From Candidatus Pelagibacterales bacterium (GTDB lineage Bacteria > Pseudomonadota > Alphaproteobacteria > Pelagibacterales > AG-422-B15), in NCBI GenBank assembly GCA_029242795.1, contig JAQWTH010000024.1, positions 1 through 33,191 of the forward strand: a stretch of 33,191 bases of DNA, given 5' to 3'. The translations under genes and the position numbers were made by a program. Below, piece after piece: positions 1,881 through 26,679 of this stretch (position 1 is the stretch's first letter; the number at the start of each line of letters is the position of its first letter). The notes under the pieces were generated by a model that saw only the letters and a program-made list of their open reading frames with translations, was not told the origin of the DNA and made no database searches.

Positions 1881-4080
1881 CCGTATATTTCTCAAAAAAT
1901 TCTGAATTTTTTTCTACTAATTGAGCAATTGATACTTTATTTAAATGATTGATTTTTAAATCAGTTCCTCCTACAAAACCAAGCTTTTCAATATGAACTG
2001 AGTTATCTTTTGCAAGAGCAATTACTTTTTCATAATTTTTCTCACTCACTTCGATTAAATAACGGCCTTGATCTTCACCAAATAAATATGCATGAAGAAA
2101 TTCTTTTTTTACTTCAATCTGTACACCAAAGTTACCCGCCATACACATTTCAGACATTGCTATTAATAATCCACCTTCACCTATATCATGAACAGATAGA
2201 GTTAAATGCCCTTCAATACAATCTAGAACAAACATTCCGTTTTTCTTTTCAATTTCTAAGTTAATTTCAGGAACACTGCCTTCTTCTTTATTTTTTATGA
2301 TTGATAAATATTGAGACATATTTAAATGTCCACTCGTTTCACCAATGACACAAATAATATTGCCTTCATTCTTCAAGCCAATTGTCATTGTCTTAGATAA
2401 ATCTTTTATGAGCCCAACACCTCCAATTGCAGGCGTTGGATAAATCCCAACACCATTTGTTTCATTGTAAAGTGAAACATTGCCTGAAATTACAGGGTAA
2501 TTTAAGTAGCTACACGACTCTGCCATTCCTCTTATGCACTCTACAAATTCTCCCATTATTTCTGGCTTTTCAGGATTTCCAAAATTCATACAGTCCGTTA
2601 CGGCAATAGGCAAAGCACCAGATGCAATGATATTTCTCCATGTTTCAACTATCGCATGCTTTCCACCTTCAAACGAATTGTGTTTACAATAGATAGGAGA
2701 ACAATCAGTGCTAATTGCAATTCCTTTATTGGTTCCGTGAACTCTAACAACCGCTGCATCAGATCCAGGTCTTACAATAGTATCCGCCATAACCATATGG
2801 TCATACTGTTCCCATATCCATTTACGACTACATAAATTTGGATGACTAATCATTTCGATTAAATCAGGTATGATTGTTTTTTGATCAAATTGATCTTGAA
2901 TAATTTTAATTCTTTTTGATGGCTCTCTAATAATATAATCTCTTTGGTATTCAGGAGCATCCTCAACTAAAATATTTATTGGAATACAAGCCTCTTCTTT
3001 ACCATTCATATTGAGCACTAAATTTTTAGTATCTGTAACTTTTCCAATAACTTCAAACTCTAGATCCCATTTTCTAAATATATTTCGTGCTAGACTCTCT
3101 TTAGTCGGATCAATAACCATTAACATTCGTTCCTGACTTTCTGAAAGCATTAACTCATAGGCTGTCATATTTTGTGCTCGCATGGGAACTTTTGTTAAGT
3201 CAATTTCGAGTCCGACATTACCTTTTGAAGCCATCTCAATTGATGATGATGTTAATCCAGCAGCACCCATATCCTGAATTGCAATAATTGCCTCTTCCTT
3301 CATTAGCTCAAGACATGCTTCCAATAGTAATTTTTCAGTAAATGGATCCCCAACTTGTACAGTTGGTTTTTTATCTTCAGAGTCATCATCAAATTCAGCA
3401 GATGCCATCGTTGCTCCGTGGATTCCATCTCTTCCTGTTTTTGAGCCAACGTAAACAACTGGATTACCAATGCCTGCTGCAGCTGAATAAAAAATTTTAT
3501 CTTTTTTGGCTATTCCAACAGTCATAGCATTGACTAAAATATTCCCATTATAAGAAGGGTGGAAATTAACTTCTCCGCCAACAGTTGGAATTCCAATACA
3601 ATTTCCATAGCCTCCAATACCTTCAACGACTCCCGATAAAAGATGTTTTGTTTTAGGGTGATCTATTTCACCAAATCTCAATGCATTTAAATTAGCTACA
3701 GGTCTTGCTCCCATTGTGAATACATCTCTCAGTATTCCACCAACACCAGTTGCAGCGCCTTGATAGGGTTCAATAAAAGAGGGGTGGTTATGACTTTCCA
3801 TTTTAAATACTGCAACGTCTCCATCATCAATATCAATAACACCCGCATTTTCTCCAGGACCTTGAACCACTCTATCACCAGAAGTTGGAAGTTTTTTTAG
3901 CCAATATTTTGATGATTTATAAGAACAATGCTCATTCCACATTGCTGAGAAGATTCCTAGCTCAGTTAAATTTGGTTCACGTCCAAGACCTTCTACAATG
4001 CTTTCAAATTCATCATGTTTAAGGCCATGATTTTCAACTAGTGACTGCTCGGTATTATATTTCCAATTCGAAATACTCAT
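1873..4080 (-). CDS. purL: Phosphoribosylformylglycinamidine synthase, large (synthetase) subunit PurL
   Basis: 735 residues, the length of the bacterial small-type PurL, which needs separate PurS and PurQ subunits. It catalyses the ATP- and glutamine-dependent step from FGAR to FGAM in purine synthesis. Visible family segments: [13 protein letters not shown] near residue 50, [21 protein letters not shown] near 95 (given in part: MESHNHPS), the glycine-rich [13 protein letters not shown] near 215, [12 protein letters not shown] near 270, and HDIGEGGLL in the second half. The two AIRS-like halves are complete. Its ATG shares a base with the purQ stop (TAATG at 4080), indicating translational coupling. 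The order purC-purS-purQ-purL is common in Alphaproteobacteria. Confidence 0.97.
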
Positions 4081-4751
4081 TATGAAAGTATACTTTCAAA
4101 GATATACTTACCATCTTCACAGCCTAAGGCTGACTCAGCAGCTCTTTCAGGATGTGGCATCAATCCAAGTACATTTTTTCTATCATTAAGTATTCCAGCG
4201 ATATTTTCTAATGATCCGTTTGGATTTGAATGAGAAGTAACCTCTCCTTCTTGGTTGCAATATTTAAAAGCAACTTGATCATTGTCGACAATTTTTTTCA
4301 GAGTTTCATCAGAGGCAAAGTAGTTTCCTTCATTATGAGCAATAGGCATTTTTGCAATATTTGTTTTTTTTGTAAATATCGATGTTTGATTTTCAGATTT
4401 TATATAGACGTCTCTACATATGAAGCTTAGAGAATTATTTCTGATTAATGCTCCATCAAGTAAAGACGTTTCTATCAGAATTTGAAAACCATTACATATA
4501 CCAATGACTGGAACCCCTTCGTTTGCTTTTTTTACGACTTCATAAATAATTGGAGAAGTTGAGGCAATTGCGCCACATCTTAAATAATCTCCATATGAGA
4601 ATCCGCCGGGCACAATAATTAGGTCTGAATTGCTAAGAGAGGTCTCCTTGTGCCAAACCATTTGAGGTTCTGATCCAGAAATCTTTCTAATTGCTACGGC
4701 GACATCTCTGTCACAATTTGATCCTGGAAAAACAATGACTTTTGATTTCAT
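4080..4751 (-). CDS. purQ: Phosphoribosylformylglycinamidine synthase, glutaminase subunit PurQ
   Basis: A 223-residue class I glutamine amidotransferase. FPGSNCDRD lies at the N terminus, [16 protein letters not shown] at about residues 48-63, and the nucleophile elbow GICNGFQIL near residue 84 carries the catalytic Cys. The His-Glu pair sits in GLMPHPERA near the C terminus. It generates ammonia from glutamine for PurL. It is co-transcribed between purS (six bases upstream) and purL (one-base overlap). The length is normal and no residue is missing. Confidence 0.97.
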
Positions 4752-6142: not shown

Positions 6143-6400
6143 ATGCCTAAAAAAAAGAGTAAATCCTCAAAAACAAAAAAAGCTTCTATTATAAAAAAAG
6201 CTACTGGGCAGAAAAAAAAACTGTCAAGAAAGAAAGTAGTAAAAAAGAAAGACGTTAAAAAGAATTCAAAAGTTACTTCTCAAAGCAGAAAAAAGAAAGA
6301 TACACCAAAAGCATTTATGACAATGACTGACGCTAATGAGATTATTGTAATGCTAGTAGGATTAAGTTTAGTTGCCTTATTAATGATTTCTATTTCTTAA
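6143..6400 (+). CDS. Small lysine-rich tail-anchored protein, unknown function
   Basis: An 85-residue protein that I do not recognise. Residues 1-56 are extremely basic, with 24 lysines and two arginines and almost no acidic residues. Residues ~65-85 form one hydrophobic helix ending at the C terminus (IIVMLVGLSLVALLMISIS), giving a predicted tail-anchored topology with a polycationic cytoplasmic arm. It follows the DUF1476 gene by 13 bases without an obvious ribosome-binding site, so it is probably co-transcribed. Its last 11 bases overlap the end of the convergent purB gene. The basic arm could bind DNA, RNA or anionic lipid; this is only inference. The A-rich composition raises some risk that the frame is spurious, but the clean helix at the end argues for a real gene. 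Confidence 0.6.
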   Translation: MPKKKSKSSKTKKASIIKKATGQKKKLSRKKVVKKKDVKKNSKVTSQSRKKKDTPKAFMTMTDANEIIVMLVGLSLVALLMISIS

Positions 6401-7685
6401 AAATCTTTTTAAAAATTTGATTAGTTTTTTTAATTGAATGATTGATATCTAGGATCTGATTAATTTCTTTTTTACTCAAATGTTGACTAACTTCTTTATC
6501 TTTTGTTAAAAGATTTGAAAAATCTTCTCCAGTTTTCCAAACTTTCATAGCATTTCTTTGTATCATTTTATAAGCTTTTTCTCTTGGCATGCCTTTATGA
6601 GTCAAAGCCAACATCAAACCTTCAGACATTGGAAGCTTATTTAGTTTATTGAGGTTAGAGAGCATATTTTTTGGGTATACAACTAGGTTTGAGATAATAT
6701 TTGTCATTCGCGCAAGACTAAAATCAGTAAGTACATTTGCATCTGGAGCCATCATACGCTCAACACTTGAATGAGATATATCTCTCTCATGCCATAAAGA
6801 AATATTTTCCATAGAAGGAATTACATAACTTCTAATTAACCTTGAAATTCCAGTTAAGTTTTCTGAAAGGACTGGATTTCTTTTATGAGGCATTGCAGAG
6901 GATCCCTTCTGTCCTTTTGAAAAGAACTCTTCCACTTCAAGAACTTCAGTTCTTTGAAGGTGTCTAATTTCAGTAGCAAGCCTCTCTATTGAACTTGCAA
7001 TAATTCCGAGTGTTGAAAAATAAACAGCATGACGGTCACGAGGAATAATCTGAGTAGAAATAGGCTCACAACTCATTCCAAGTTTCTTAGCAACAAATTG
7101 CTCTACACGTAGATCTATATTAGCATAATTTCCAACGGCACCTGAAATTGCACAAAAAGAAATTTCTTTTGTAGCTAATTCAAAACGTTTTTGATTGCGC
7201 TCAAATTCTTTATAAAAGGAAGCCATTTTTACTCCAAATGTGGTTGGCTCAGCATGAATTCCATGGCTTCTTCCAATACACGGAGTATTTTTATGTTTAA
7301 GAGATATTTTTTTAAGAGACTTTATTAGATTAGTAAGTTCAGTATTAATAATTTTAGCAGATTTCATTAACTGTACATTAAATGCTGTATCTAGAATGTC
7401 AGATGATGTTAATCCTTGATGAAGAAATCGGGCAGGCTTACCTGCATATTCAGCAATTGATGTTAAAAAAGCAATGACGTCATGTTTTACTTCACTTTCA
7501 ATCTTATCTATTCTTTTTTCATTTATTTTTGCTTTAGCTCTTATTTTTCTAGATGTTCCTTGAGGGACTGTTCCCAATTTTTCCATAGCCTCACAGGCAT
7601 ATAGTTCAATATCGAGCCAAATTTGAAACTTAGTCTTAGAACTCCATACTTCTTTCATTGGAGCTCTTGAATAACGAGGGATCAT
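6390..7685 (-). CDS. purB: Adenylosuccinate lyase
   Basis: 431 residues, normal for bacterial PurB. The fumarase/aspartase-superfamily signature GQKGSSAMPHKRNPV lies at about residues 260-274 and carries the catalytic serine of the flexible loop. FLHQGLTSSDILDTA (near 87) and GRSHGIHAEPTTFG (near 140) carry the catalytic His residues. It acts twice in purine synthesis: SAICAR to AICAR, and adenylosuccinate to AMP. It is on the same strand as the pur operon but separated from it by the divergent DUF1476 pair, so it is transcribed independently. It is followed upstream on the same strand by map. Confidence 0.97.
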   Translation of the reverse strand: MIPRYSRAPMKEVWSSKTKFQIWLDIELYACEAMEKLGTVPQGTSRKIRAKAKINEKRIDKIESEVKHDVIAFLTSIAEYAGKPARFLHQGLTSSDILDTAFNVQLMKSAKIINTELTNLIKSLKKISLKHKNTPCIGRSHGIHAEPTTFGVKMASFYKEFERNQKRFELATKEISFCAISGAVGNYANIDLRVEQFVAKKLGMSCEPISTQIIPRDRHAVYFSTLGIIASSIERLATEIRHLQRTEVLEVEEFFSKGQKGSSAMPHKRNPVLSENLTGISRLIRSYVIPSMENISLWHERDISHSSVERMMAPDANVLTDFSLARMTNIISNLVVYPKNMLSNLNKLNKLPMSEGLMLALTHKGMPREKAYKMIQRNAMKVWKTGEDFSNLLTKDKEVSQHLSKKEINQILDINHSIKKTNQIFKKIFKK

Positions 7686-7706
7686 AATGAACTTTTAAGC
7701 TTTTAT

Positions 7707-8474
7707 TTATGGTTTATCAAGACCTGCTGGTGATTTTGTGAAAATCTCATGTCCATCTTGTGTGACACCGATACTATGCTCATATTGAGCAGATAAGGTC
7801 TTGTCTTTTGTTACTGCAGTCCATCCATCATTTAACATTCTCACATCATACTTTCCTATATTAATCATAGGCTCTACAGTAAAAAACATTCCTTGCTCAA
7901 TTTTATCACCTTCTCCCATTTCCCCATAATGAAGAATATTTGGATATTCATGGAATACTGTTCCCAAGCCATGCCCACAAAAGTCTCGAACAACGCTATA
8001 GTTTTGTTTTTCTGCTATTGACTGAATTTTCGCTCCGATGTCACCCAAATACGCATTTGGAGACACAGCTTCAATTCCATTCATCATTGCTTCGTAAGTG
8101 CAATCAATTAATTTTTGAGCTTTATTATTTATCTTGCCAACAGGGAACATCCTACTTGTATCACCGTGCCACCCATCAACTATGACTGTAACATCAATAT
8201 TGACAATATCCCCGCTTTCTAAAATCCTATTAGATGGTATCCCATGGCAAATAACGTGATTTAATGATGTACAGATTGATTTTGGAAAGCCTTTATAAAA
8301 AAGTGGAGCTATAAAGCCATTATTTAAGTCTATAAAATTAAATGCAATACGATCTAGTTCTTCCGTAGAAACTCCTGGTTTTACATGATCAACCAACAAG
8401 TCAAGAGTTCTCGCAGCAAGGTTGCCCGCTTTTCTCATTCCCTCAAAATCTTTAGATTTATGAATTGTCATCAT
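7707..8474 (-). CDS. map: Methionine aminopeptidase type I
   Basis: 255 residues. The five metal ligands are in recognisable contexts: NIDVTVIVDGWHGDTSRMF (two Asp), GHGLGTVFHEYP (His), FFTVEPMI (Glu) and AQYEHSIGVT (Glu). CHGIPSNR holds the substrate-side His. It removes the initiator methionine from nascent proteins. No N-terminal zinc-finger extension is present, so it is the short bacterial type Ia. The gene is three bases downstream of sfsA on the same strand, an arrangement seen often in Alphaproteobacteria. Confidence 0.97.
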   Translation of the reverse strand: MMTIHKSKDFEGMRKAGNLAARTLDLLVDHVKPGVSTEELDRIAFNFIDLNNGFIAPLFYKGFPKSICTSLNHVICHGIPSNRILESGDIVNIDVTVIVDGWHGDTSRMFPVGKINNKAQKLIDCTYEAMMNGIEAVSPNAYLGDIGAKIQSIAEKQNYSVVRDFCGHGLGTVFHEYPNILHYGEMGEGDKIEQGMFFTVEPMINIGKYDVRMLNDGWTAVTKDKTLSAQYEHSIGVTQDGHEIFTKSPAGLDKP

Positions 8475-8477
8475 TCT

Positions 8478-9182
8478 TTACTTATCTATAAATTTTATTT
8501 TTTTATCAAGTTCAATATTATTTCTCACAAATGAGCAGCTATAACACAGTATTTCAACCCCCGCTTGCTTAGCGTTTATAATATTTTTTTTGTAAGTATT
8601 GTCTATTTCTTCTGCAATTCTAAATTTTTTACAATCATCTCTTTGAACTAGAAAGAGCATGATCGCTCTTCTTTTCTTTTTTACTACATCAATTAATTCA
8701 TGAAGATGCTTGCTGCCTCGTTCAGTTACAGCATCAGGAAATTCGGCTATACCTTTTCTTTTAGAAAGAGTAACATTTTTTACCTCTAAATATATTTCTT
8801 CACCTTTTTTATTAGTTATTAAAAAATCAATTCTACTATTTTTTCCATACTTAACTTCTCTTTTAAAATCATATTTTTTTCCTAATGTTGATATTTTTTT
8901 TTCAACAATTCCTTCTTCAACAATTCTATTTGCTTTATGAGTATTAACGCCAACAAATGCATCTTGAACTTTAATTATTTCAAGTGTGTATTTGAGCTTT
9001 CTTTTTTCATTATCTGTTTCGGTTAGGTAAACAATATTTCCTTCTGTTAAAAGACCCATCATTGATCCAGTATTTGGACAATGAGCTGTAACAACTTCTC
9101 CACTATCTAGTTTGACATCGGCAAAAAATCTCTTATATCTTTTTATCAATCTGCCTGTTATAAATTTTACTGGATCACGCAC
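8478..9182 (-). CDS. sfsA: SfsA family protein (sugar fermentation stimulation protein homologue)
   Basis: 234 residues beginning with GTG at 9182. The N-terminal OB-like part has GRLIKRYKRFFADV and VVTAHCPNTGSMMGL. The C-terminal nuclease-like part has RIDFLI, YLEVKNVTL, FPDAVTERGSKHL and later VQRDDCKKF, matching the family's D-ExK nuclease fold arrangement. The biochemical role is not settled; a DNA-binding or nuclease role has been proposed for the family. The start codon is two bases from that of the divergent CinA-like gene, so its promoter must lie inside that gene. Confidence 0.92.
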   Translation of the reverse strand: MRDPVKFITGRLIKRYKRFFADVKLDSGEVVTAHCPNTGSMMGLLTEGNIVYLTETDNEKRKLKYTLEIIKVQDAFVGVNTHKANRIVEEGIVEKKISTLGKKYDFKREVKYGKNSRIDFLITNKKGEEIYLEVKNVTLSKRKGIAEFPDAVTERGSKHLHELIDVVKKKRRAIMLFLVQRDDCKKFRIAEEIDNTYKKNIINAKQAGVEILCYSCSFVRNNIELDKKIKFIDK

Positions 9183-9184
9183 TT

Positions 9185-9898
9185 ATGAAAGCCTCACTTA
9201 TTATTATTGGTAACGAAATATTATCTGGTCGCACTCAAGATAAGAACTTATCATATCTTGCCACATGGTTGAATGAAATAGGTATTCAATTATCTGAAGT
9301 GAGAGTTATTCGTGATGAAGAAGATGAGATTATGGATACTGTTAATTTTTTAAGAAAAAAATATGATTATGTTTTCACAACAGGAGGTATTGGTCCGACA
9401 CACGATGATATTACCTCTGAAAGTATAGCTAAGGCTTTCAATGTTGATCTAGAGACCAATCCTCAAGCATTGGCAATTCTAAAAGAGTATTATAAAGACT
9501 CTGAGCTAACAGAAGCTAGATTGAAGATGACGAAAATTCCAAAGGGAGCAGAATTAGTTGAAAACCCAGTCAGTAAAGCTCCTGGGTTTAAAATTGAAAA
9601 TGTTTTTGTTATGGCTGGCATTCCTAAAATAATGCAAGGGATGCTTGAGGGCGCAAAAAATCATCTCTCTGGAGGCAAGCCTGTGAAATCTGAGTCAATT
9701 GATGTGTTTATGGCTGAAAGCTTTATTGCGAAAGAGTTATCTAATATGCAAGATAAATTTAAAGATGTTGAAATAGGAAGTTATCCATTTGTAAAAGATG
9801 GAAAGTATGGAACTAGTCTCGTAATGAGGTCATCTGATGAGGTAATACTTTCTGAATGTAAGGCTGAAATCGAACACATGATTAGTAAATTAGTATAA
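9185..9898 (+). CDS. CinA/MoCF-domain protein (molybdopterin-binding domain)
   Basis: 237 residues containing only the N-terminal MoaB/Mog-like domain of CinA: IIIGNEILSGRTQDKN at residues ~6-21 and TTGGIGPTHDDITSESIAKA at ~65-84, the classic molybdopterin-binding motif region. The C-terminal nicotinamide-nucleotide amidase domain of full CinA is absent, which is normal for the alphaproteobacterial short form. Near the end, a basic PFVKDGKYGTSLVMRS region resembles the linker domain of CinA. In other CinA-type proteins this domain has ADP-ribose pyrophosphatase activity; whether that holds here is unknown. The gene diverges from sfsA with start codons two bases apart and has no room for its own leader. 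Confidence 0.85.
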   Translation: MKASLIIIGNEILSGRTQDKNLSYLATWLNEIGIQLSEVRVIRDEEDEIMDTVNFLRKKYDYVFTTGGIGPTHDDITSESIAKAFNVDLETNPQALAILKEYYKDSELTEARLKMTKIPKGAELVENPVSKAPGFKIENVFVMAGIPKIMQGMLEGAKNHLSGGKPVKSESIDVFMAESFIAKELSNMQDKFKDVEIGSYPFVKDGKYGTSLVMRSSDEVILSECKAEIEHMISKLV

Positions 9899-10047: not shown

Positions 10048-10812
10048 ATGCTACTAAAAATAAAAAACTTAGTAATGACTACGATCGGGATTTTCCTAGT
10101 TGTAGGCACTACAAAAGCTTTTGCAGCACCTTTGATGCTTAGTACAAGTGATAACGTTGGTATATCATTTTGGCTAATTTCAATGGCAATGGTCGCTTCG
10201 ACTGCATTCTTTTTTCTAGAAAGAGATAATGTAGCTGCAAAGTGGAAAACTTCTATGACAATCGCTGGGTTGGTTACTGGTGTAGCTGCTTGGCATTATT
10301 TCTATATGAGAGGTGTGTGGATTTCTACTGGTGATTCACCAACTGTATTAAGATACATTGACTGGTTAATTACAGTGCCACTTCAAATTATTGAATTTTA
10401 TGTAATCCTTGCTGCAGTGACTACTGTTGCTGCCGCTTTATTCTGGAGATTATTAGTTGCTTCATTAGTAATGTTAATCTTTGGTTATTTAGGTGAAGCA
10501 GGGATGATGGGTACAATGCCTGCATTTATTATTGCAATGGCTGGCTGGTTGTACATCCTTTATGAGATCTTTGCAGGTGAAGCTAGTAAAGCAAATGCTG
10601 GTAGTGGAAATGCTGCAGGTCAACAAGCTTTTAGAGCACTATGTCTGATAGTGACTATTGGTTGGGCGATCTATCCATTAGGATATGCAATAGGTTATTT
10701 TGGCGGTGGCGTAGACGCTGGTAACTTAAACCTAATTTACAACCTAGCTGACTTTGTTAACAAGATTGCTTTCGGTATGGCTATTTATGTAGCTGCTAAA
10801 TCTGATAGCTAA
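10048..10812 (+). CDS. Proteorhodopsin, blue-absorbing proton-pump type
   Basis: 254 residues with seven membrane helices after an N-terminal signal-like segment (residues ~8-27, ending AFA). Helix C carries the pump motif: proton acceptor D105, T109 and proton donor E116 (the DTE pattern), with H83 as the usual counter-ion partner. The retinal Schiff-base lysine is K239 in FVNKIAFG. The spectral-tuning site, position 105 in the SAR86 protein and here Q113 in TVPLQIIEF, is glutamine, which is associated with blue absorption and open-ocean water. A good AAGGGGAG site (10030-10037) precedes the ATG. It is expected to pump protons out in light to supplement respiration. No blh or crt gene lies beside it, so retinal must be made or acquired elsewhere. 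A strong terminator closes the gene, so it is monocistronic. Confidence 0.97.
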   Translation: MLLKIKNLVMTTIGIFLVVGTTKAFAAPLMLSTSDNVGISFWLISMAMVASTAFFFLERDNVAAKWKTSMTIAGLVTGVAAWHYFYMRGVWISTGDSPTVLRYIDWLITVPLQIIEFYVILAAVTTVAAALFWRLLVASLVMLIFGYLGEAGMMGTMPAFIIAMAGWLYILYEIFAGEASKANAGSGNAAGQQAFRALCLIVTIGWAIYPLGYAIGYFGGGVDAGNLNLIYNLADFVNKIAFGMAIYVAAKSDS

Positions 10813-10874: not shown

Positions 10875-11762
10875 ATGATCTTTATTTTAAAAATTACAAA
10901 ATGGTTTTTGATAGTTCTATCCATTTTGATTTTTTTAATTCTTGGAAACTATTTCTCAAAAGTGTTTGCTGGGTATTTTCGATTGAATGTCGAACAGGTA
11001 TATTCATCAGACCATTTCAATTTTCTAAAATCTCATTTTGAAATTGTTAAACCTTCATCGGGTAAAAAATTTCCAACAGTAATCATGTTTCATGCATGTG
11101 GCGGACCTTATCCTTATTTGGATAGTTGGCAAAAGTTTTTTAGTGATAATGGAATTGCCTCGATACAAGTTGATAGTACCGGACCTAGAGGAATGAATAG
11201 GCGGGCAGCTATCAGAACTGTATGTTCTGGAGTTGATCTTCAAGGGCAAGAAAGAGCAGGCGATGTTTACAGTGTTTTGACAAATCTTGATCAATTTTCT
11301 TGGATAGATAATGACAATCTTTTTTTAGCTGGTTGGTCTCATGGCGCATATACTTTAATGGATTTTATGACAATGAATGATGATCTTGTTCCATCAAATA
11401 TTCTTGATTTTGATCAAAATAATATTCCCAAGATTAAAGGCAAGATTACGTTCTATCCTCATTGTGGAATACTGAACTTATCACAAAAGTTTGGATGGCG
11501 AACAAAAACCCCATCTTTAGTATTCCTTGCAGATCAAGACGGATTTGGTCTCGCAACACAACCAAGTGACTGTATTGAGTTATTTGACTCAATGAATAAA
11601 AAAGAAAAACACATCGATTATTATCTTATGGAAAACAGCACTCATGTGTTTGATAGTGAGATTTATATAAGAAGGGGCATAGTATACAATAAACAGGCAA
11701 CAGATTTTGCTAAAAACAACATTATATCTTTCATCAAAAGTTCTGGTAGCAAAGATAATTAA
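10875..11762 (+). CDS. Dienelactone-hydrolase-family alpha/beta hydrolase with N-terminal membrane anchor
   Basis: 295 residues. Residues ~7-28 form one hydrophobic helix without a lipobox or clear cleavage site, so the protein is probably anchored to the inner membrane with the enzyme domain outside. The alpha/beta-hydrolase domain has the oxyanion segment FHACGGP (71-77), nucleophile elbow GWSHG with S155, an acid candidate in FLADQDG (D220 or D222), and H257 in NSTHVFD. This matches the dienelactone hydrolase superfamily, which cleaves ester or lactone bonds in diverse compounds. The substrate is unknown. It starts 15 bases after the rhodopsin terminator and has no obvious ribosome-binding site, so the exact start is less certain than the family. 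Confidence 0.75.
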   Translation: MIFILKITKWFLIVLSILIFLILGNYFSKVFAGYFRLNVEQVYSSDHFNFLKSHFEIVKPSSGKKFPTVIMFHACGGPYPYLDSWQKFFSDNGIASIQVDSTGPRGMNRRAAIRTVCSGVDLQGQERAGDVYSVLTNLDQFSWIDNDNLFLAGWSHGAYTLMDFMTMNDDLVPSNILDFDQNNIPKIKGKITFYPHCGILNLSQKFGWRTKTPSLVFLADQDGFGLATQPSDCIELFDSMNKKEKHIDYYLMENSTHVFDSEIYIRRGIVYNKQATDFAKNNIISFIKSSGSKDN

Positions 11763-11784
11763 TCGATATAAACTCTAATTTAAT

Positions 11785-11872
11785 GGCCTCATGTTGGAAT
11801 TGGTAGACAACCGAGACTTAAAATCTCGTGCTCCTTGTGGGCGTCCCGGTTCGAGTCCGGGTGAGGCCACCA
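11785..11872 (+). tRNA. tRNA-Leu (anticodon TAA)
   Basis: An 88-base class II tRNA with encoded CCA. The acceptor stem GGCCTCA pairs with TGAGGCC. The anticodon loop CTTAAAA gives TAA. A variable arm is present, and the T-arm is CCCGG/GTTCGAG/CCGGG-like. No integrase or duplicated 3' end is nearby. Confidence 0.95.
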
Positions 11873-11914
11873 ACTCTTAGACTTTTTAGTTATTATTTTT
11901 AATACTAAATACAC

Positions 11915-11942
11915 TTGGAATACCTTTGTAAATAGGTATACA
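11915..11942 (+). promoter_or_regulatory. Candidate promoter with inverted repeat for the lipoprotein/exported-protein pair
   Basis: TTGGAA (11915-11920) and TATACA (11937-11942) are spaced by 16 bp. An inverted repeat, ATACCT (11920-11925) and AGGTAT (11934-11939) with an 8-base spacer, overlaps the space between the two boxes, where a repressor could bind. It is the only promoter-like match seen between tRNA-Leu and the ATG at 11965. The evidence is by eye only. Confidence 0.35.
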
Positions 11943-11964
11943 CTATTCTGATATTGGAGGGCTT

Positions 11965-12081
11965 ATGGTAAAAAAATCAATCTTTATAATCCTAGTAACA
12001 ATTTCACTCGCATTTTCTGGATGTGTTGGGAGAGGAACAACTAATATCTCTGGAATGGAAATGGGAGATGGTCTCAAATAA
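11965..12081 (+). CDS. 38-residue lipoprotein, unknown function
   Basis: This small reading frame encodes 38 residues. The N terminus has MVKKS followed by a hydrophobic stretch (IFIILVTISLAF) and the lipobox FSGC, with the modified Cys at residue 20; that leaves a mature lipopeptide of about 19 residues (CVGRGTTNISGMEMGDGLK). A GGAGGG ribosome-binding site at 11956-11961 precedes the ATG by three bases. The gene ends 28 bases before the 813-residue exported protein gene on the same strand, so the two probably share a transcript. Residue 2 after the Cys is Val, not Asp, so no Asp+2 inner-membrane retention signal is seen; outer-membrane sorting is possible. It is too short to be a T2SS pilotin of known type. 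I do not recognise a family. Similar tiny entericidin-like lipoproteins exist, but similarity is only in size. Confidence 0.7.
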   Translation: MVKKSIFIILVTISLAFSGCVGRGTTNISGMEMGDGLK

Positions 12082-12109
12082 ATTTAATAAATAAGAAGGT
12101 ACATAAAAA

Positions 12110-14551
12110 ATGTTAAAAGTCAGCAATAATAAAATTCTTAAATTTTTATTCTTATTATTCATTTCTATGTCAGTTTTCACATACTCTAACTCATATGCGA
12201 TCACTGAACCTGGTGGACAATACGCAATTGATAAAACTGATCAAATAAAAAGATTTGAACACAACTCACTTGATAATTTAAAGATGATTGACTTCTTCCT
12301 TTGTGTAATGAAAGTAAGAGCTGATTTATTTCCTAACTCTAATTACAAGGCTCAGGTTAATGAAGCTGCATGTCAAAAATTAGCTGGGGATTCTGATGAA
12401 GATGGCGCTAAAGTAAATATGGCTGATATAACGCTTAGCTGTACTCGTTCCAGCAACTCATCCCCTCAAATTTGTAAAAGTTGGTACAGCGTCGCTGGAG
12501 AAAATACAACTTATCTTGTTAAAGTTCAAATGAATGAAGAGCCAACTACTGCAAAACCAAACGGATACTTTACTTTTACATGGTGTATGGCTGACTCTGG
12601 CGATGGAACATGCAAAGCTTCTAATCTTGCATATGGTCAATTAAGTTTATCTGAAGATGGCAGTGGCAACACAGTTGTATCAATGTATGACGAATATGGT
12701 GGACAAATGTATAGTGAGATTACCGGCGAAGGTATGACACTCCAAGATTCAAGCGGAAATAATTTATCTGCTCCAACATCTGTTGTGGATAGCATCAATC
12801 TAACGTTAAGTAATCATAAGCTCGAGTCTGCAACTGGAACTTCGCGTCAAATAGGTGAAACGGCACCAGGCATAGGAGTAATTCGTTTAGCTGCTAGTCC
12901 AACTACATATAATCTCTCATTTGATGCAGCTCATGGTCTTGTAAATGAAGATGGCGGTTCTGCATCATGTTATACCCTTTCAAATCCAAGTGAATACGTT
13001 CACCAATATGACCTATATGATATCTCTACCGGAGCTATTAAATCAATGGGTGGAGGTATACCTATTTCTGTTGCAAGCGTTGCCGGAAGTGGTGCTTCTG
13101 TCGGAAATCGTGGCTGGTGGGATTACTGGGGACTCCACCTAGACGGATCTACTAATAGCAGTGTAAAAAAACTTGCGACAGGTGATACCGTAACTGCAAA
13201 TGCTGCTCAAACTTCTCTTGGAATTTCAAAAGATGACACGCTTACGGTTAACACTTCTATGGGCTCGCTTAGGGAAGAAACTAGTTATACTGGAACTATA
13301 CCAGCAGTTGATCAAGCTGCCGCGACTACAACAATGTACTTTTGGTCACCTTCAGGAAAAGAATTTATTTATTTAGATGGTACGACTATAAAAGCACTCC
13401 CAAGCGCTAATGGTGGTGATGGAGGAACTCATTATGATGGATCTTCTTTCAGTGCCGGTGCTGATATTTCTGCCGCTCTTGAATGGTGTGGTAATAGTGA
13501 TATCCAGGATTATTGTTTTGGAGCTCATTCAACAGCGATTGGTGGATGGTTCAACATAAGCGATATTTCAGCGAAGGAGTTTAAGGCGTACGTGCAAAAA
13601 AGGGTTACTCCTGGCATGTCAGGCTTTACTTCTGATGTTTACTTAAAATGTTACGGAGATCGATGTGCAAAGCCAATGGATGGAGGCTCATTGAGCACAG
13701 CTGGCTTTGGAGCTACTGACTTTAAAGCTTCTGCTAGTTCAACTTATAAATACTCATTTATTGACCCAAATGGTGGAACACCAAAATATTATATGTTTGA
13801 TGTAAGTGATATGACACTGAAACATTGCTCAACTTGGAATTCAAGTTCAAACACATGTACAGGTGATCTTTATCCCGTCATTTGTGCGACGGACGAAGGT
13901 TCAGATAAATGTGATAACTCTGATTGGAGCAGCACTACATGGCTCGATATGACTATGGTAAAATATGATGTAACTGTAAATAGCTGGGAAAACCTAGACT
14001 CTGCTACAAGATATATTTGGAATACATCCAATAATATATATGGGGATCGTCTCGCGTGGCCTTCAAAAAGTGGAACAGTTATTTCATTTTCACCTCCATT
14101 AAATATGACATATGAACATTCAACGTCGAATGATCGTAATGCTTCGAGCACCTATAATGGAAAGAAATTTGGTTTAGAATATGGTGGAAGTGGAAATCTC
14201 TGGGGTATCGATTGGTCTAAAGAAGATCCAAGTTGCCAAATGAATTGTGATTATCTTCCACAAATTAGTATTAAAGATGGTGTAGAAGTTGATACTACTG
14301 GGGATGGCTCTAATGACCATGTAATACTAGCAAGACGTATGGATTTAAGACCATCAACTGTCAGTGAAGCAACTTGTACAGATAAAGGCTTAAGTGTAGC
14401 TAGTTCTGCATCAGCGCCATCAACACCAGCAATTGAAACTATCATTAATTTTGGCACAAGTGATGAGCCAACGGGAGGTTCTTTGGTAAGTACAGAAGTT
14501 TGTGTTGTAGATAATATTTTATCTGGAGCGGCCGGCTGTCCAACTGAGTAG
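12110..14551 (+). CDS. Large exported cysteine-rich protein of unknown function
   Basis: 813 residues. The signal peptide has a basic n-region, a hydrophobic core at residues ~11-25 and an NSYA cleavage site after residue 30. The mature protein is rich in Ser, Thr, Gly, Asp, Asn and aromatic residues. It has 20 cysteines, at 65, 88, 111, 122, 159, 168, 287, 460, 469, 514, 519, 573, 583, 592, 601, 709, 713, 756, 798 and 810, an even number that fits disulfide pairing outside the cytoplasm. Two Asp-rich calcium-site-like motifs are visible: DSDEDG at 94-99 and DTTGDGSND at 728-736. No further membrane helix, LPXTG, autotransporter or PEP-CTERM signal is seen. AGAAGG at 12094-12099 precedes the ATG. 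Its composition looks richer in GC than the neighbouring genes. I do not recognise a family. It is a plausible T2SS substrate or surface-layer-like protein, by inference only. Confidence 0.9.
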   Translation: MLKVSNNKILKFLFLLFISMSVFTYSNSYAITEPGGQYAIDKTDQIKRFEHNSLDNLKMIDFFLCVMKVRADLFPNSNYKAQVNEAACQKLAGDSDEDGAKVNMADITLSCTRSSNSSPQICKSWYSVAGENTTYLVKVQMNEEPTTAKPNGYFTFTWCMADSGDGTCKASNLAYGQLSLSEDGSGNTVVSMYDEYGGQMYSEITGEGMTLQDSSGNNLSAPTSVVDSINLTLSNHKLESATGTSRQIGETAPGIGVIRLAASPTTYNLSFDAAHGLVNEDGGSASCYTLSNPSEYVHQYDLYDISTGAIKSMGGGIPISVASVAGSGASVGNRGWWDYWGLHLDGSTNSSVKKLATGDTVTANAAQTSLGISKDDTLTVNTSMGSLREETSYTGTIPAVDQAAATTTMYFWSPSGKEFIYLDGTTIKALPSANGGDGGTHYDGSSFSAGADISAALEWCGNSDIQDYCFGAHSTAIGGWFNISDISAKEFKAYVQKRVTPGMSGFTSDVYLKCYGDRCAKPMDGGSLSTAGFGATDFKASASSTYKYSFIDPNGGTPKYYMFDVSDMTLKHCSTWNSSSNTCTGDLYPVICATDEGSDKCDNSDWSSTTWLDMTMVKYDVTVNSWENLDSATRYIWNTSNNIYGDRLAWPSKSGTVISFSPPLNMTYEHSTSNDRNASSTYNGKKFGLEYGGSGNLWGIDWSKEDPSCQMNCDYLPQISIKDGVEVDTTGDGSNDHVILARRMDLRPSTVSEATCTDKGLSVASSASAPSTPAIETIINFGTSDEPTGGSLVSTEVCVVDNILSGAAGCPTE

Positions 14552-14557
14552 TTTTAT

Positions 14558-14583
14558 CTGAGAGAAATTTATGTTTCTCTCAG
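14558..14583. terminator. Perfect 10-bp hairpin between convergent genes, probable bidirectional terminator
   Basis: CTGAGAGAAA (14558-14567) pairs perfectly with TTTCTCTCAG (14574-14583) around a six-base loop. It sits exactly between the stop of the 813-residue protein gene (14551) and the stop of nadK (14585). There is no T run on either side, so it is an atypical intrinsic terminator or an mRNA 3'-end stabiliser. Confidence 0.5.
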
Positions 14584-14584
14584 G

Positions 14585-15352
14585 CTAATACTTAAATTGT
14601 TCGTTTAAAATTCGTTCTTCAAATGAATGATTTGAATCGTATAAAAGTATTATTTTTATTGAAGTGTCTTGTTGAATTGTGATTGATTTGACATTCCTTA
14701 CTTCTAAGCTGTCAGCTGTAGCGCTAACTGGTCTTTTATCATTTTCAAGAATATCTAATTTAACCTCAGATTTGTTATTTAAAATTGCACCCTTCCATCG
14801 TCTAGGTCTGAACGCACTAATTGGCGTGAGTGCAAGATCATTCGATTCAATCGATAGAATAGGACCATGAGCCGATAGATTATAAGCAGTACTTCCAGAT
14901 GGAGTTGCTAGGAGAATTCCATCACAGATAAGCTCTTCTAGTCTGATTTGATTATCAATTGAAACTTGAATCTTTGCCGCTTGATGGGTTTGTCTTAATA
15001 ATGCAACTTCGTTAATGGCCTTTGCAGTATGTAAGGTGTCATTTTTATCATAAGCAGTCATAACCAATGGTGACAATTGAACTGATTGAGATGCATTTAA
15101 TCTTTTAATTAAATGATCATCAGCAACTGAATTCATTAGGAATCCAATACTGCCATAATTAATTCCAAAGAATGGAATTTTTTGATCCATATAATCTTTA
15201 ATGGCTTGAAGCATAAACCCATCACCTCCAAGTACGATCAAAACATCAGAGTCATTCACAGCAAAATCACCATATTTTGAGACTAAAATCTTTTTTTGCT
15301 CTTGGGCTTCATTATTAGTAGAAGCAATAAAGTAAGGTTTGTTAAATTTCAT
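14585..15352 (-). CDS. nadK: NAD kinase
   Basis: 255 residues. The ATP-NAD kinase signature GGDG lies at residues 42-45 (VLGGDGFMLQA), followed by GINYGSIGFLMN. The NAD-binding region has CDGILLATPSGSTAYNLSAHGPI near residues 140-162 (in part: ATPSGSTAY). It phosphorylates NAD to NADP in the cytosol. The length is at the short end of the family, as is usual in Alphaproteobacteria. It is transcribed divergently from glpK across a 78-bp region that contains an inverted repeat. Confidence 0.94.
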   Translation of the reverse strand: MKFNKPYFIASTNNEAQEQKKILVSKYGDFAVNDSDVLIVLGGDGFMLQAIKDYMDQKIPFFGINYGSIGFLMNSVADDHLIKRLNASQSVQLSPLVMTAYDKNDTLHTAKAINEVALLRQTHQAAKIQVSIDNQIRLEELICDGILLATPSGSTAYNLSAHGPILSIESNDLALTPISAFRPRRWKGAILNNKSEVKLDILENDKRPVSATADSLEVRNVKSITIQQDTSIKIILLYDSNHSFEERILNEQFKY

Positions 15353-19677: not shown

Positions 19678-20139
19678 TTAATAGATAAGACTCAGATCTA
19701 TGTTGATAAGATCTTCACTTATGACATCAATATATAATTTATCGATAACTAGACCTCGAGAATTATATACGTAAGAGATAAAACTAGTTAATTCTTTCAT
19801 GGAAGCTGTCTGGCCATTTAAATTAAATATATTGTTTTCATATTTGATTTTAAAATTTGATATACCTAATACTGTTAAGTCAGACTGTAAATCAGATGAT
19901 TTGATTGGAGGACTTGATAAGTGTCTCCATTTTCCAGGGAATATACTATCAAATTCTTCAATTGTGCTTAATTGCTTTTGTAACACATTCAGCTCATTTT
20001 CGAAATTGTCATTTTTATTTATTGTTGCACTAAGCAAGAAGGATATGAGTGATAAAAATATAAATGATAGTGATATTATATTTATAATTTTAATCGAAAT
20101 TGATGATTCAGCCCACTGTGTTTTCAATTCACTTATCAT
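19678..20139 (-). CDS. gspM: Type II secretion protein GspM (predicted)
   Basis: 153 residues, assigned mostly by position as the last gene of the gsp operon and by architecture. A short cytoplasmic N terminus is followed by one membrane helix at about residues 18-41, a coiled-coil-prone segment (ENELNVLQKQLSTIEEF) and a C-terminal periplasmic ferredoxin-like region (QTASMKELTSFISYVYNSRGLVIDKL). GspM normally pairs with GspL in the inner-membrane assembly platform. The sequence of this family is poorly conserved, so sequence alone would not identify it. Its start lies two bases after the gspL stop. No terminator is seen after the gene. Confidence 0.8.
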   Translation of the reverse strand: MISELKTQWAESSISIKIINIISLSFIFLSLISFLLSATINKNDNFENELNVLQKQLSTIEEFDSIFPGKWRHLSSPPIKSSDLQSDLTVLGISNFKIKYENNIFNLNGQTASMKELTSFISYVYNSRGLVIDKLYIDVISEDLINIDLSLIY

Positions 20140-20141
20140 AA

Positions 20142-21326
20142 TTAATTAATTCCCTTGAGCGTTAAATCAATTTCCATCTGAGTTTTTTGTTCAGATATAT
20201 TTTGTATCGATCTTACTTTGGATAAAAAATAACTATTATTTTGAAGTGCATCATTCATACGTGATATCGATGAACTTTTCGTACTATGGAGTTTAAGATA
20301 TACTGTGTCATCCTTCTTTATATTGAGTTGATTAAGTTCTATGCCTGGTATTCCAAATACCTCTCCTAGATAATTTAGCGTATTGATATGGTTAATGTTT
20401 GGTAAATTTTTAGTATTTTTTATACTGTATACTATGTCCGAAAGATCGGATTTTTCATAAGTATTTTCATCATGTGAAATAAATTCAAATAGATTATTAA
20501 GTCTCATTTCAATCTGTTCAGAGTTTTGAGTCGAGTTTTGAAAATAATTAAAACTTGATAGTGAAAATATAATGGAAAAAATTGCTAAGTTGATAGTTTT
20601 CCAGTTTTGAGACCAATTCGATGAATCATTGTTTGCGGCTTTTAACAGCTGTTTAAGATAAATAGCATTTTTAATATCTATGAATGATTGGTCATTAGCA
20701 ATACTTTCATACTTAATTTGAACATTGTTCTGAGATTGCAAAGATCTCAAGTTACCTTGACTTAAATTTTCTTCTTTAAGGGAGTAAAAACTTAGAAAGT
20801 TGGGTTTTTCATTTTGATTGAAAAGAACATTAATATCTTCGCTAAGGTTCTCTGAATTCGATGAAAATATATTTCCATTAAAATAAATATTAATTTCATT
20901 GTTTTCTTTAATCAAAAATTTCCACTCGTTTTGATCTGATTTTAGTAGTGATGTTTCAAAGTATATTGGCCTACTTTGTAATTTATACTTTTTTAAAATT
21001 TTAGATAATGCAATAATCAAACTCTTGTTGATTATGGTGTAAGGCAACCTATCTTTATGTTCAGAATTAACAATTATTAATTCATCAGGAGATTGTTCAA
21101 GGTCTTGCTTTATTATTTTTTTAGCATTTTTTTTAAATAACGACTTATTTTTTTTAGGAACTTCAAGATAATCTGAAAAACAACATTGTTTTGAAAGAAC
21201 AAAAATCAAGTTTGATTGATTATCACTTTGCTCAATTAATGAATCCAATTTATCAGTAATATTGTATTTAGAATTGATGAACTGACATCTTTCTAGGTCT
21301 GAATTTATAAAAATTATACTATTCAT
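20142..21326 (-). CDS. gspL: Type II secretion protein GspL (predicted)
   Basis: 394 residues. The N-terminal ~230 residues resemble the cytoplasmic actin-like domain of GspL that contacts GspE. A membrane helix at about residues 245-263 (INLAIFSIIFSLSSFNYF) follows, then a periplasmic coiled-coil and ferredoxin-like domain ending in the MEIDLTLKGIN strand. This topology and its place between gspK and gspM support the call. The ATG shares one base with the gspK stop (21326). It is expected to anchor the ATPase to the inner-membrane platform. Sequence identity to known GspL is probably low. Confidence 0.82.
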   Translation of the reverse strand: MNSIIFINSDLERCQFINSKYNITDKLDSLIEQSDNQSNLIFVLSKQCCFSDYLEVPKKNKSLFKKNAKKIIKQDLEQSPDELIIVNSEHKDRLPYTIINKSLIIALSKILKKYKLQSRPIYFETSLLKSDQNEWKFLIKENNEINIYFNGNIFSSNSENLSEDINVLFNQNEKPNFLSFYSLKEENLSQGNLRSLQSQNNVQIKYESIANDQSFIDIKNAIYLKQLLKAANNDSSNWSQNWKTINLAIFSIIFSLSSFNYFQNSTQNSEQIEMRLNNLFEFISHDENTYEKSDLSDIVYSIKNTKNLPNINHINTLNYLGEVFGIPGIELNQLNIKKDDTVYLKLHSTKSSSISRMNDALQNNSYFLSKVRSIQNISEQKTQMEIDLTLKGIN

Positions 21327-22312
21327 TACATTATTTCTATTTTCTGAATAACCCTATTGTGCTTTAGAAATCGAGAACCATCAAGGTCATGATTAACAAT
21401 TGTTGAAAAGCTTAAGTTATGACCAGACATTGTAATTTTTCCTTCAATCAGAAAATTTTCACTTTTTGTAGTAATCATATTTGTTATTTCATTAATTGTA
21501 GAGTCGGAAAGTCTTAAATTATATTTACAATAATAAGCAAAATCTTTTACGCTCTCGAACGGCTTTTCGTTTCTATATCTTATGATCTTTTCTGCATTGA
21601 TAAGACCAATCATTGGATGCAAAGCAGATATTGTATTGATATTTATGGTATTTATGTTCGTATCATATTCCTTTGGAATACCAGACAGATATGGCTTAAG
21701 TTTCTTTAGTATAGCTTTATCAAATCCTCTAATTAATAATACTTCATCTAAATTATGAATAGCTCTATTTGCTGCACGGTATCCTGGATTTAAGCTTAGA
21801 TAGTAGTCATCTTCTCCCCCTGAAGACGAAAACACTTCAGAGTCATAATCAATCCAATCAATTAATGCATAAATTAAGTCTTGGTTAATGTCTAGTTGGT
21901 CAAATAACGACATCAAGCGTTCTAACTGAATATAATTAATATCCGAGTTATTAAGTACCAAGCTATTGACGTTAATCTTTGATTGTAAATCACTAATCTT
22001 TAAATTTACTGTATAAGACCCCACAGAAAAAGGTTCAATTGAATTTCCCCAGTTTTCATTTTGATAAGTCATATTTGGTGAATTTTGAAAATCAATATTT
22101 AAAAGATTAATCGCAAAATCTTCCACTGCATGAATGTGAGTATAAATTATATTATTCTTTTGATACTGGCCTATCTGTTCTTGATCTTGTTTGCCAACAT
22201 TTAATAATATCGCAAGAAGGCTACTAACAAATCCTAAAAGAATTAATACAGAAATTAAGGCTGAGCCATTATTTCTAAATTTGAGATAAAATGACACGTT
22301 CAATATCCCCAT
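21326..22312 (-). CDS. gspK: Type II secretion minor pseudopilin GspK
   Basis: 328 residues, the size of GspK. The class III signal ends NNG with cleavage before SALISVLILLGF, residues ~17-28. The usual Glu at mature position 5 is absent, as is normal for GspK. The large alpha-helical insert has LIDWIDYDSE and GGEDDYYLSLNPGYRAANR, a conserved GspK region. It caps the pseudopilus tip with GspI and GspJ. The frame overlaps gspJ by 38 bases if it starts at the ATG at 22312; a GTG at 22297, preceded by a GGGG, is an alternative that shortens the leader. Only the start is uncertain. Confidence 0.92.
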   Translation of the reverse strand: MGILNVSFYLKFRNNGSALISVLILLGFVSSLLAILLNVGKQDQEQIGQYQKNNIIYTHIHAVEDFAINLLNIDFQNSPNMTYQNENWGNSIEPFSVGSYTVNLKISDLQSKINVNSLVLNNSDINYIQLERLMSLFDQLDINQDLIYALIDWIDYDSEVFSSSGGEDDYYLSLNPGYRAANRAIHNLDEVLLIRGFDKAILKKLKPYLSGIPKEYDTNINTININTISALHPMIGLINAEKIIRYRNEKPFESVKDFAYYCKYNLRLSDSTINEITNMITTKSENFLIEGKITMSGHNLSFSTIVNHDLDGSRFLKHNRVIQKIEIM

Positions 22313-22970
22313 AATATTTATGTTTTATTAAAATTTTAAATGCTAATGGCAGCCTATCATTTTTAGACTTATTAGATGTAAGATTTTGGTAGGCTTCAAT
22401 ATCACTTCTGGTTGTAAGTCCGATAGAAGATGATTGAGAGCTACTATTATCTGTAATATATCCTATTGGCCATGATTGAAGCCATTGTCTATTATGATCT
22501 GTAATAAATATAGAAAAATCTAATATATTCTCATCTAAAACATGAGTTTGATAATTTGAGTTTTGTATTCTATCAAGTACATTCCAGATATTTCTTTTTA
22601 ATTGCTGGTTTGAGAAATCATATTCTATTCGATATGTATATTGAGTATGATCTAATTCATTAAATATTGATCTTGAAAAGATTATCTTTTTATCATTCGT
22701 ATTACTGACGATCAATGATGGTTGGTAATCCCCATACTCATCACGTATTGATCTTGAAGACAATGTTTTTAGGTCCTGTTCTATAATTGATAATGTTGTT
22801 ATAAATTTTTCATAATTTTCATGATTTTTTGTTAAGCGATCTAAATTTATATTTAAAAATCCAAGAGCATAAAAAATACTTGATAAAATAATCCCTATAA
22901 TAAGAGTACTAATAACTACTTCTACAAGAGTAAAACCTCTTTCAAATTTATTGCGTTTGAAAATACACAT
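22275..22970 (-). CDS. gspJ: Type II secretion minor pseudopilin GspJ
   Basis: 231 residues from the ATG at 22970. The frame is open further upstream to 23045, but that would put about 37 residues before the prepilin site, whereas the chosen start gives a 12-residue leader ending in G (MCIFKRNKFERG), cut before FTLVEVV. The mature Glu5 is present. DIEAYQNL and RLPLAFKI are in the C-terminal beta part, a typical place for GspJ. It forms the tip complex with GspI and GspK. The start overlaps the end of gspI by 23 bases, which suggests coupled translation. Confidence 0.88.
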   Translation of the reverse strand: MCIFKRNKFERGFTLVEVVISTLIIGIILSSIFYALGFLNINLDRLTKNHENYEKFITTLSIIEQDLKTLSSRSIRDEYGDYQPSLIVSNTNDKKIIFSRSIFNELDHTQYTYRIEYDFSNQQLKRNIWNVLDRIQNSNYQTHVLDENILDFSIFITDHNRQWLQSWPIGYITDNSSSQSSSIGLTTRSDIEAYQNLTSNKSKNDRLPLAFKILIKHKYYGDIERVILSQI

Positions 22971-23334
22971 AATATTCAGTCTTAACTTTCTTTTTTTTAT
23001 CATTCTGATCAATAGTAAAAAATTCAAATGTATGAAGATTCTCAATTGCAGTAGGAATAGTTTCCACTAACCATCTATATTTTTTCTGATTAATTAAATT
23101 TTCCCCTCTAAGAGTTTTTTTGTCTAATAGCTTGTTATTTAAAACAAGCTCTGAATAAGCGTTGCTAGTTATGAATTGCCAAGAAATTTGATCTCTTATT
23201 TTTTGCGATAGAAATATGTTTGATTGAAGTGCAAAAAAAATACTTCCAATTGTAAGAGATACAATTACTAACGCTATTAATGACTCAACTAATGAAAAAC
23301 CATTAGAATTTTTATCACTGTATTTCAACACCAT
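22948..23334 (-). CDS. gspI: Type II secretion minor pseudopilin GspI
   Basis: 128 residues. The prepilin leader ends NSNG, with processing before FSLVESLIALVIVSL, and Glu5 is present. Length and hydrophobic helix match GspI. The C-terminal region has KKYRWLVETIPT, a family-like segment. It initiates the pseudopilus tip complex with GspJ and GspK. It overlaps gspH by 20 bases and gspJ by 23 bases. Confidence 0.88.
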   Translation of the reverse strand: MVLKYSDKNSNGFSLVESLIALVIVSLTIGSIFFALQSNIFLSQKIRDQISWQFITSNAYSELVLNNKLLDKKTLRGENLINQKKYRWLVETIPTAIENLHTFEFFTIDQNDKKKKVKTEYYVYFQTQ

Positions 23335-23752
23335 TTAATCCTAGTTTGAGTTTTTTTTCTTGTGATGATTCTTTTAATGTTAAAAAAATATAATCAATTA
23401 GGTTTTTATGACTTAATTGGATTTGAAATTCATTTGTTATATTTTTCATATCAGCCGTTCTTTTTTGAAAGATAATATTATTAAGCTTTACTAATTCCTC
23501 CTTATCATTAACTCTTGCTGAATTAACATCAAAATCTATTTGCAATACCTCTCCTGTTTGTAAAACATGATTAATTTTGTCATCCAGAAATTGAATTATT
23601 CTTTTTACTTCTCTTTTTTCGCTGTTATTGATTCCAGATCCGAACCCGCTAATTGAAATTGATCCAGCTATACCAATGATAATTAGTACAATTAAAATTT
23701 CGATTAATGAAAAACCTCTGTGACTATTTTTTTTTAATTTTCTAAGTTCCAA
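23315..23752 (-). CDS. gspH: Type II secretion minor pseudopilin GspH
   Basis: 145 residues. The prepilin signal HRG is cut before FSLIEILIVLIIIG, with Glu5 present, and a beta-rich C-terminal domain follows. The place directly after gspG and before gspI gives the assignment; the C-terminal part is too divergent to identify alone. It overlaps gspG by 19 bases. GspH links the tip complex to the GspG shaft. Confidence 0.85.
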   Translation of the reverse strand: MELRKLKKNSHRGFSLIEILIVLIIIGIAGSISISGFGSGINNSEKREVKRIIQFLDDKINHVLQTGEVLQIDFDVNSARVNDKEELVKLNNIIFQKRTADMKNITNEFQIQLSHKNLIDYIFLTLKESSQEKKLKLGLNGVEIQ

Positions 23753-25346: not shown

Positions 25347-25359
25347 TTTTTATATCAAA

Positions 25360-26676: not shown

Positions 26677-26679
26677 ACT

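Follow-up and report, generated by a model that had tools for sequence, protein, structure and literature searches.

We report that a two-gene locus in the 1.19-Mb genome of a member of the Pelagibacterales encodes an 813-aa protein which, judged by profile comparison, is a distant member of a protein family undescribed in Pfam, NCBIfam and PDB, and that members of this family carry a predicted lipid anchor either on the same chain or on a small lipoprotein encoded just upstream. In the reading that we favor, and consider fairly probable, the 813-aa protein is a surface protein exported by the T2SS, and the 38-aa micro-lipoprotein encoded next to it is its detached lipid anchor. The window, that is, the whole stretch of DNA that was analysed, is 33,191 nucleotides long, and the pair lies within it at the 3' end of a tRNA gene, as follows.

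11785-11872, plus strand: tRNA-Leu(TAA), with the pair at its 3' end
11965-12081, plus strand: ORF for a tiny, 38-aa lipoprotein (ORF and lipobox read from sequence)
12110-14551, plus strand: gene for the 813-aa exported protein (predicted signal peptide at about residues 1-30, 20 Cys, predicted to be beta-rich)

Both ORFs, the 28 bases that separate them, the signal peptide and the count of 20 cysteines are as the initial annotation of this DNA had claimed. The lipobox of the 38-aa protein, LAFSGC, makes residue 20 the predicted lipid-bearing cysteine and leaves a mature chain of about 19 aa (CVGRGTTNISGMEMGDGLK); the 813-aa protein has a non-lipoprotein N-terminal hydrophobic signal peptide, the lipobox sitting on the separate 38-aa protein. 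All of its cysteines, exactly 20, lie beyond residue 64. Between genera (20 vs 16 cysteines in total) Cys 111/122, 460/469 and 709/713 are lost as pairs and 415/437 is gained as a pair, which is what disulfides predict. Two Asp-rich stretches, DSDEDG (94-99) and DTTGDGSND (728-736), do exist as the initial annotation had pointed out, but only the second is retained in 35%-identical relatives, as DVDGDGTMD. When the window is compared with a 95%-identical relative, differences in the gene for the 813-aa protein fall 34/17/179 over the codon positions (dN 0.030, dS 0.42, dN/dS about 0.07), and the small gene gives dN 0.035, dS 0.27 and dN/dS of about 0.13, from 9 differences only; purifying selection acts on both genes. 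Upstream of the neighborhood of the pair are a bacteriorhodopsin-like gene (10048-10812; PF01036, 7e-43) and, between it and that neighborhood, a predicted hydrolase gene (10875-11762).

Searches of Pfam, NCBIfam and PDB with the 813-aa protein gave no match over curated cut-offs, and the PF11924 beta-barrel domain was absent from it in the Pfam search. A profile made from Pelagibacterales sequences only gave strong matches in six genomes outside the class, G804 (1.2e-13, in two collinear segments) and five genomes of the taxonomic family f181 (1e-9 to 1e-11), and hhalign found full-length similarity at a probability of about 98% over 671-689 columns. With G804 as seed, 8 more genomes were found in the class of G804, which is probably the Gammaproteobacteria, and the combined wider profile found the family in 23 of 274 genomes of that class. 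Cysteines 65, 88 and 287 are conserved in the family and 514 and 519 are present in nearly all members, a pattern to which the protein of the window conforms. Nineteen family members gave no match above chance in Pfam, NCBIfam or PDB, and the claim that the protein belongs to an unknown family stands, in that no member matches a known domain. The AlphaFold2 model of a fused homologue, G1135, is beta-rich (pLDDT 76, pTM 0.75), as is that of the 813-aa protein, which is of modest confidence (pLDDT 67, pTM 0.66); the predicted models are of the beta-rich type that the initial annotation had named as support for its reading. With an E-value limit of 0.001 Foldseek returned no match, the highest probability being 0.35, and hmmsearch against PDB returned none either; sialidase and GH43 structures stood near the top of the Foldseek list, with a TM of about 0.1, and are not matches.

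Within the Pelagibacterales the big protein was found in 5 of 297 genomes; a sixth match, to an ORF of about 122 aa in G065, was weak, reached no further than the signal-peptide region, and was rejected. The wider profile gave no further carriers in a sample of 147 Pelagibacterales genomes, and among 289 genomes drawn across the Alphaproteobacteria no carrier was found besides the window's own genome. A phage, plasmid or viral origin was also considered and set aside, searches of 50,697 phage records, 72,556 plasmids and IMG/VR having turned up no relatives. A counterpart of the small lipoprotein gene lies upstream of the big-protein homologue in G002, G014 and G102. In a second genus within the taxonomic family, two species have a big protein that is about 35% identical to that of the window and is preceded, at a distance of a few bases, by a gene for a 41-aa lipoprotein. 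The small lipoproteins of the window and of G014 gave no BLASTP alignment with each other. The suggestion that the two genes form a functional pair is strengthened, since within the Pelagibacterales the pair is retained even where the identity of the big proteins has fallen to 35%. A small lipoprotein gene adjoins every relative of the non-lipidated form whose upstream DNA is assembled, and the other relatives have the segment fused at the N terminus.

The fused relatives suggest that the small lipoprotein is a detached anchor. In 22 carriers the protein is a single chain, with the lipobox fused to the big domain, in the order signal peptide, lipid Cys, usually a Gly/Ser-rich linker, a GLxMPxxLSVV-like motif, and the domain with VNxILC; in G1108 the lipid Cys is the second candidate Cys and reads CGGSSGSA. 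In the split form an ordinary signal peptide precedes the domain, and a separate gene just upstream codes for a small lipoprotein. Outside the Pelagibacterales the split pairs are the following.

G804: 58-aa lipoprotein, genes overlapping by 14 bases
G999: 58-aa lipoprotein, gap of 23 bases
G1176: gap of 14
G1170: 56-aa lipoprotein, gap of 186 bases
G1114: two split pairs, with lipoproteins of 65 aa and 173 aa (the latter with an extra domain), gap of 18 bases each

The anchor was found in cis or in trans in all carriers that can be assessed, G1047 and G001 being excluded because contig ends cut it off. G1114, of the other class, has a streamlined genome of 1.19 Mb; its contig L124 holds three loci within 12 kb (2682-4403, 6376-9606 and 11231-14896), two of them family pairs and the third a look-alike (a 59-aa lipoprotein and a 512-aa exported protein). 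The extra domain on one of its small lipoproteins, of about 100 residues, appears cupredoxin-like by eye and gives no match in Pfam.

Outside the Pelagibacterales the small lipoproteins of the split pairs have tails that match the anchor motif of the fused form, with 3-6 residues between the motif and the C-terminus; shuffling gave p values of 0.0008 to 0.15 for the six tails and a combined p = 3e-6. For the tail of the window lipoprotein, GMEMGDGLK, the value is 0.49, with only GMEM in common with the motif, and for that of the G014 lipoprotein it is 0.16. Going by these residues, the tail of the window lipoprotein has diverged from the motif, and it is position, size and lipobox, not the motif, that argue for its role as an anchor. 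In the model of G1135 the motif block (31-40) has a mean pLDDT of about 77, and segments 1-28 and 43-54 are below 50. This fits a motif peptide that would rest on the domain and be joined to it by a loose linker, so that a cut in the linker need not lose the contact. On a tree of 19 members split and fused forms are intermixed, with at least 3 changes on the best tree; a single origin is also possible, and this mixed order makes repeated fission or fusion in the family likely. The notion of an anchor and a displayed protein, put forward in the initial annotation, thereby gains comparative support from gene position and from the fused and split forms.

The same comparison bears on a second explanation, in which the small lipoprotein is an assembly or maturation factor, either a pilotin-like secretin helper or an LptM-like disulfide aid, and the T2SS secretes the big protein into the medium. 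Small lipoproteins with assembly or maturation roles exist, among them GspS and LptM; the small lipoprotein co-occurs with the T2SS in the Pelagibacterales, and the big protein is rich in Cys. We nevertheless regard this explanation as unlikely. The separate small gene is missing in precisely those carriers whose big protein has its own lipobox, which an assembly factor leaves unexplained, and a mature chain of about 19 aa is far under pilotin size. The small gene moreover adjoins the big gene and not the secretin gene, and searches of Pfam and NCBIfam gave no LptM or pilotin match for it.

The case for a T2SS-exported surface protein with a detached anchor also depends on a linkage which is absent from the initial annotation. 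A gsp operon lies at 19678-29221, on the opposite strand and 5 kb downstream of the pair, which is outside the operon.

19678-20139, minus strand: gspM (by position and size, no Pfam match; same place in L012, L013, L015 and L016)
20142-21326, minus strand: gspL (by position and size, no Pfam match; same place in L012, L013, L015 and L016)
21326-22312, minus strand: gspK, minor pseudopilin (PF21687, 4.5e-22; NF037980 over cut-off)
22275-23045, minus strand: gspJ, minor pseudopilin (PF11612, 1.9e-16)
22948-23334, minus strand: gspI, minor pseudopilin (N_methyl; TIGR01707, 7e-6, below cut-off)
23315-23752, minus strand: gspH, minor pseudopilin (N_methyl; TIGR01708, 2.7e-7, below cut-off)
23734-24144, minus strand: gspG, major pseudopilin (PF08334, 3e-33)
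24144-25346, minus strand: gspF, platform protein (PF00482, 1.8e-43)
25360-26676, minus strand: gspE, secretion ATPase (PF00437, 6.7e-112; TIGR02533 the best NCBIfam match, below cut-off)
26680-28485, minus strand: gspD, secretin (TIGR02517, 1.9e-126, over cut-off; Secretin and GspD N0)
28463-29221, minus strand: gspC (PF11356, 7.5e-4, below cut-off; by position)
29325-29400, minus strand: tRNA-Thr(TGT), the 3' end of which borders the T2SS block

A prepilin peptidase (PF01478) was not found in the window's assembly (G000, 93% complete) and is present in G001, G002, G014, G102 and G091; its absence is probably an assembly gap. An orthologue of gspE (at least 66% identity, E <1e-189) occurs in 6 of the 297 Pelagibacterales genomes, namely the five carriers of the big protein and G091, which is 58% complete and whose contig ends at gspJ, before the expected site of the pair. 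The big protein is accordingly present in 5 of 6 gspE-bearing genomes and in 0 of the 291 others (Fisher 3e-10, a value that overstates independence because the carriers come from two genera only). In G014 and G102, of the sister genus, the pair adjoins gspM and is convergent with it; a prepilin peptidase gene lies beyond gspC in G014, as in G091, and on the same contig in G102. In the sister genus pair, operon and peptidase make up a single block, about 14 kb long, which is flanked by a fatty-acid hydroxylase gene on one side and the 3' end of tRNA-Thr on the other. Outside the class, G999 has gspE-F-G-H-I-J-K-L-M-N followed on the same strand by the small lipoprotein and domain genes, and G982 has gspM-gspN followed by the fused gene, so that the gene stands at the gspM end of the T2SS operon in three lineages (Pelagibacterales, G999 and G982). 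GspD was over cut-off in 13 of 14 carriers vs 8 of 18 non-carriers (p = 0.005) and, with one genome per family, in 10/10 vs 8/18 (p 0.003). By co-occurrence, adjacency and GspD enrichment, all of them read from genome sequences, the family is linked to the T2SS.

The chromosomal site of the pair differs between genera: in the window's genus it is the 3' end of tRNA-Leu, 5 kb from the operon, instead of the place beside gspM, and the tRNA-Leu/nadK site is empty in G014 and G102. Four relatives that lack a T2SS have a different two-gene surface locus at the same site. One of its genes codes for an inverse-autotransporter barrel, matched to PF11924 at 3e-28 in L071 and assigned by resemblance in the other three, and the second for an exported protein that bears Cys and is 286-381 aa long.

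L071, 3168-4919 (G005): inverse-autotransporter surface locus
L072, 14172-15939 (G010): inverse-autotransporter surface locus
L073, 2812-4837 (G008): inverse-autotransporter surface locus
L074, 5726-7734 (G003): inverse-autotransporter surface locus

The tRNA-Leu/nadK site looks like a hotspot for surface cargo. These loci resemble the pair in being two-gene surface loci at the same site, but they combine an outer-membrane barrel with an unrelated exported protein and the pair of the window has no barrel; homology of their partner proteins to the 813-aa protein was rejected at an hhalign probability of 0.3%. In G002 (L005 at about 2828-2878, the same as L016) the 3' half of tRNA-Leu is partly duplicated: a copy of about 50 nt stands some 175 bp downstream of the complete gene, immediately before the pair, and resembles a remnant as left by an integrated element. 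The gsp operon has 27-30% G+C vs 33-39% around it, and the interval from tRNA-Thr to the fatty-acid hydroxylase gene measures 7, 12, 337 and 812 bp in four relatives without a T2SS; the low G+C and this near-empty interval suggest that the operon is a block at tRNA-Thr that was gained or is often lost.

Distance from the operon is also what a third explanation has in its favor, namely that the big protein is surface-displayed by some other route (BAM, the LPS machinery or a flippase not yet described) and that the T2SS is coincidental or exports something else. The pair of the window is separated from the gsp operon and occupies a site which holds another surface pair in relatives, and in most carriers of the other class the family gene is away from the gsp genes. 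Against this stand the co-occurrence with the T2SS in 297 Pelagibacterales genomes, the adjacency in three lineages, the enrichment of GspD, and a T2SS-type sorting motif in most family members, and we consider such a route distinctly unlikely.

The sorting motif requires closer attention. In A. baumannii the export of lipoproteins by the T2SS needs GspN. Roberts, Gura and Sandkvist (2025, PMC12802150) report for T2SS surface lipoproteins a requirement for GspN and for a motif at P2'-P8' that is rich in Gly/Ser or Asn/Asp. In most members of the family at least 5 of the 7 residues P2'-P8' after the lipid Cys are Gly/Ser, and the small lipoprotein of G014 (CLGGSSSS) has 6 of 7; that of the window (CVGRGTTN) has 2 of 7 and lacks the sorting motif. 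GspN (PF01203) was over cut-off in 17 of 18 carriers outside the Pelagibacterales, G1114 being just below, and gave no match in the six Pelagibacterales T2SS genomes, several of which are incomplete. Carriers and T2SS-bearing non-carriers did not differ (17/18 vs 6/8, p = 0.22), and GspN was left out as evidence because its presence fails to separate the two.

The missing motif and the GspN result are the points in favor of a fourth explanation, a periplasmic tether, in which the big protein stays inside the outer membrane. The linkage to the T2SS speaks against it, as do the size, the richness in Ser, Thr and Gly and the paired Cys of the big protein, which are typical of exported proteins, and we hold it to be the least probable of the explanations weighed here. 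The diverged tail of the window lipoprotein, its missing sorting motif and the missing GspN fit an unlipidated cargo that has no need of the T2SS lipoprotein branch; they fit a periplasmic tether equally.

From the family, the gene pair, the fused and split architectures and the T2SS linkage, we infer for the preferred reading, a T2SS-exported surface protein with a detached anchor, the following course of events. The 813-aa protein would be made with an ordinary Sec signal peptide, fold and form its disulfides in the periplasm, and cross the outer membrane through the T2SS, the operon of which lies at a distance of 5 kb. The product of the 38-codon gene would be a micro-lipoprotein whose mature chain consists only of the lipidated Cys, a spacer of few residues and the C-terminal tail; as a detached anchor it would keep the 813-aa protein on the outer membrane, presumably at its outer surface, probably through non-covalent docking of the tail on the big domain. 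That this domain serves in adhesion or binding is a guess. More tentatively, and as a possibility that we rate below the reading for the window itself, the family may use a two-component anchor, in which an unlipidated domain passes through an ordinary T2SS and is captured by the C-terminal docking peptide of a micro-lipoprotein that is encoded alongside it and has about 20-40 residues when mature, split and single-chain forms interconverting in evolution. The split form could then enable surface display by a T2SS that has no GspN.

Among known systems the closest are the T2SS-dependent surface lipoproteins, such as pullulanase (PulA) and InvL, together with the GspN-dependent class of Roberts, Gura and Sandkvist (PMC12802150); they are likewise large, lipid-anchored exported proteins with a Gly/Ser motif after the Cys in a T2SS genome. 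The single-chain members of the family would fit this class, having the lipobox on the exported protein in 22 homologues, and family members directly follow gspM-gspN as a single chain in G982 and as a split pair in G999. The pair of the window differs from the class in that the lipid is on a separate micro-protein, GspN was not found, the Gly/Ser motif is absent and a sequence relation is not apparent. ElpS of Caulobacter crescentus is a surface lipoprotein encoded beside the T2SS operon, the surface location of which is T2SS-independent and the release T2SS-dependent (PMC2996285). It too is a surface lipoprotein with its gene by a T2SS operon in an aquatic alphaproteobacterium, but it is one chain, and it is likened here by description, not by sequence.

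Literature searches covering freely readable papers found no description of this family, nor of T2SS cargo in the Pelagibacterales. The finding is sound, both for an undescribed family, now defined for proteins unnamed in Pfam, NCBIfam and PDB, and for T2SS-linked putative surface lipoproteins with the anchor in cis or in trans, which is more interesting than the initial annotation had stated. How T2SS cargo is retained on the cell is an active question, and it was not until 2025 that a role of GspN for lipoprotein cargo was reported (PMC12802150). The family offers natural comparisons between cis and trans anchoring of the same domain, and between the presence and absence of GspN. It shows, too, that a streamlined SAR11-type lineage retains a T2SS with one nearby candidate cargo, while most of its relatives have no T2SS.
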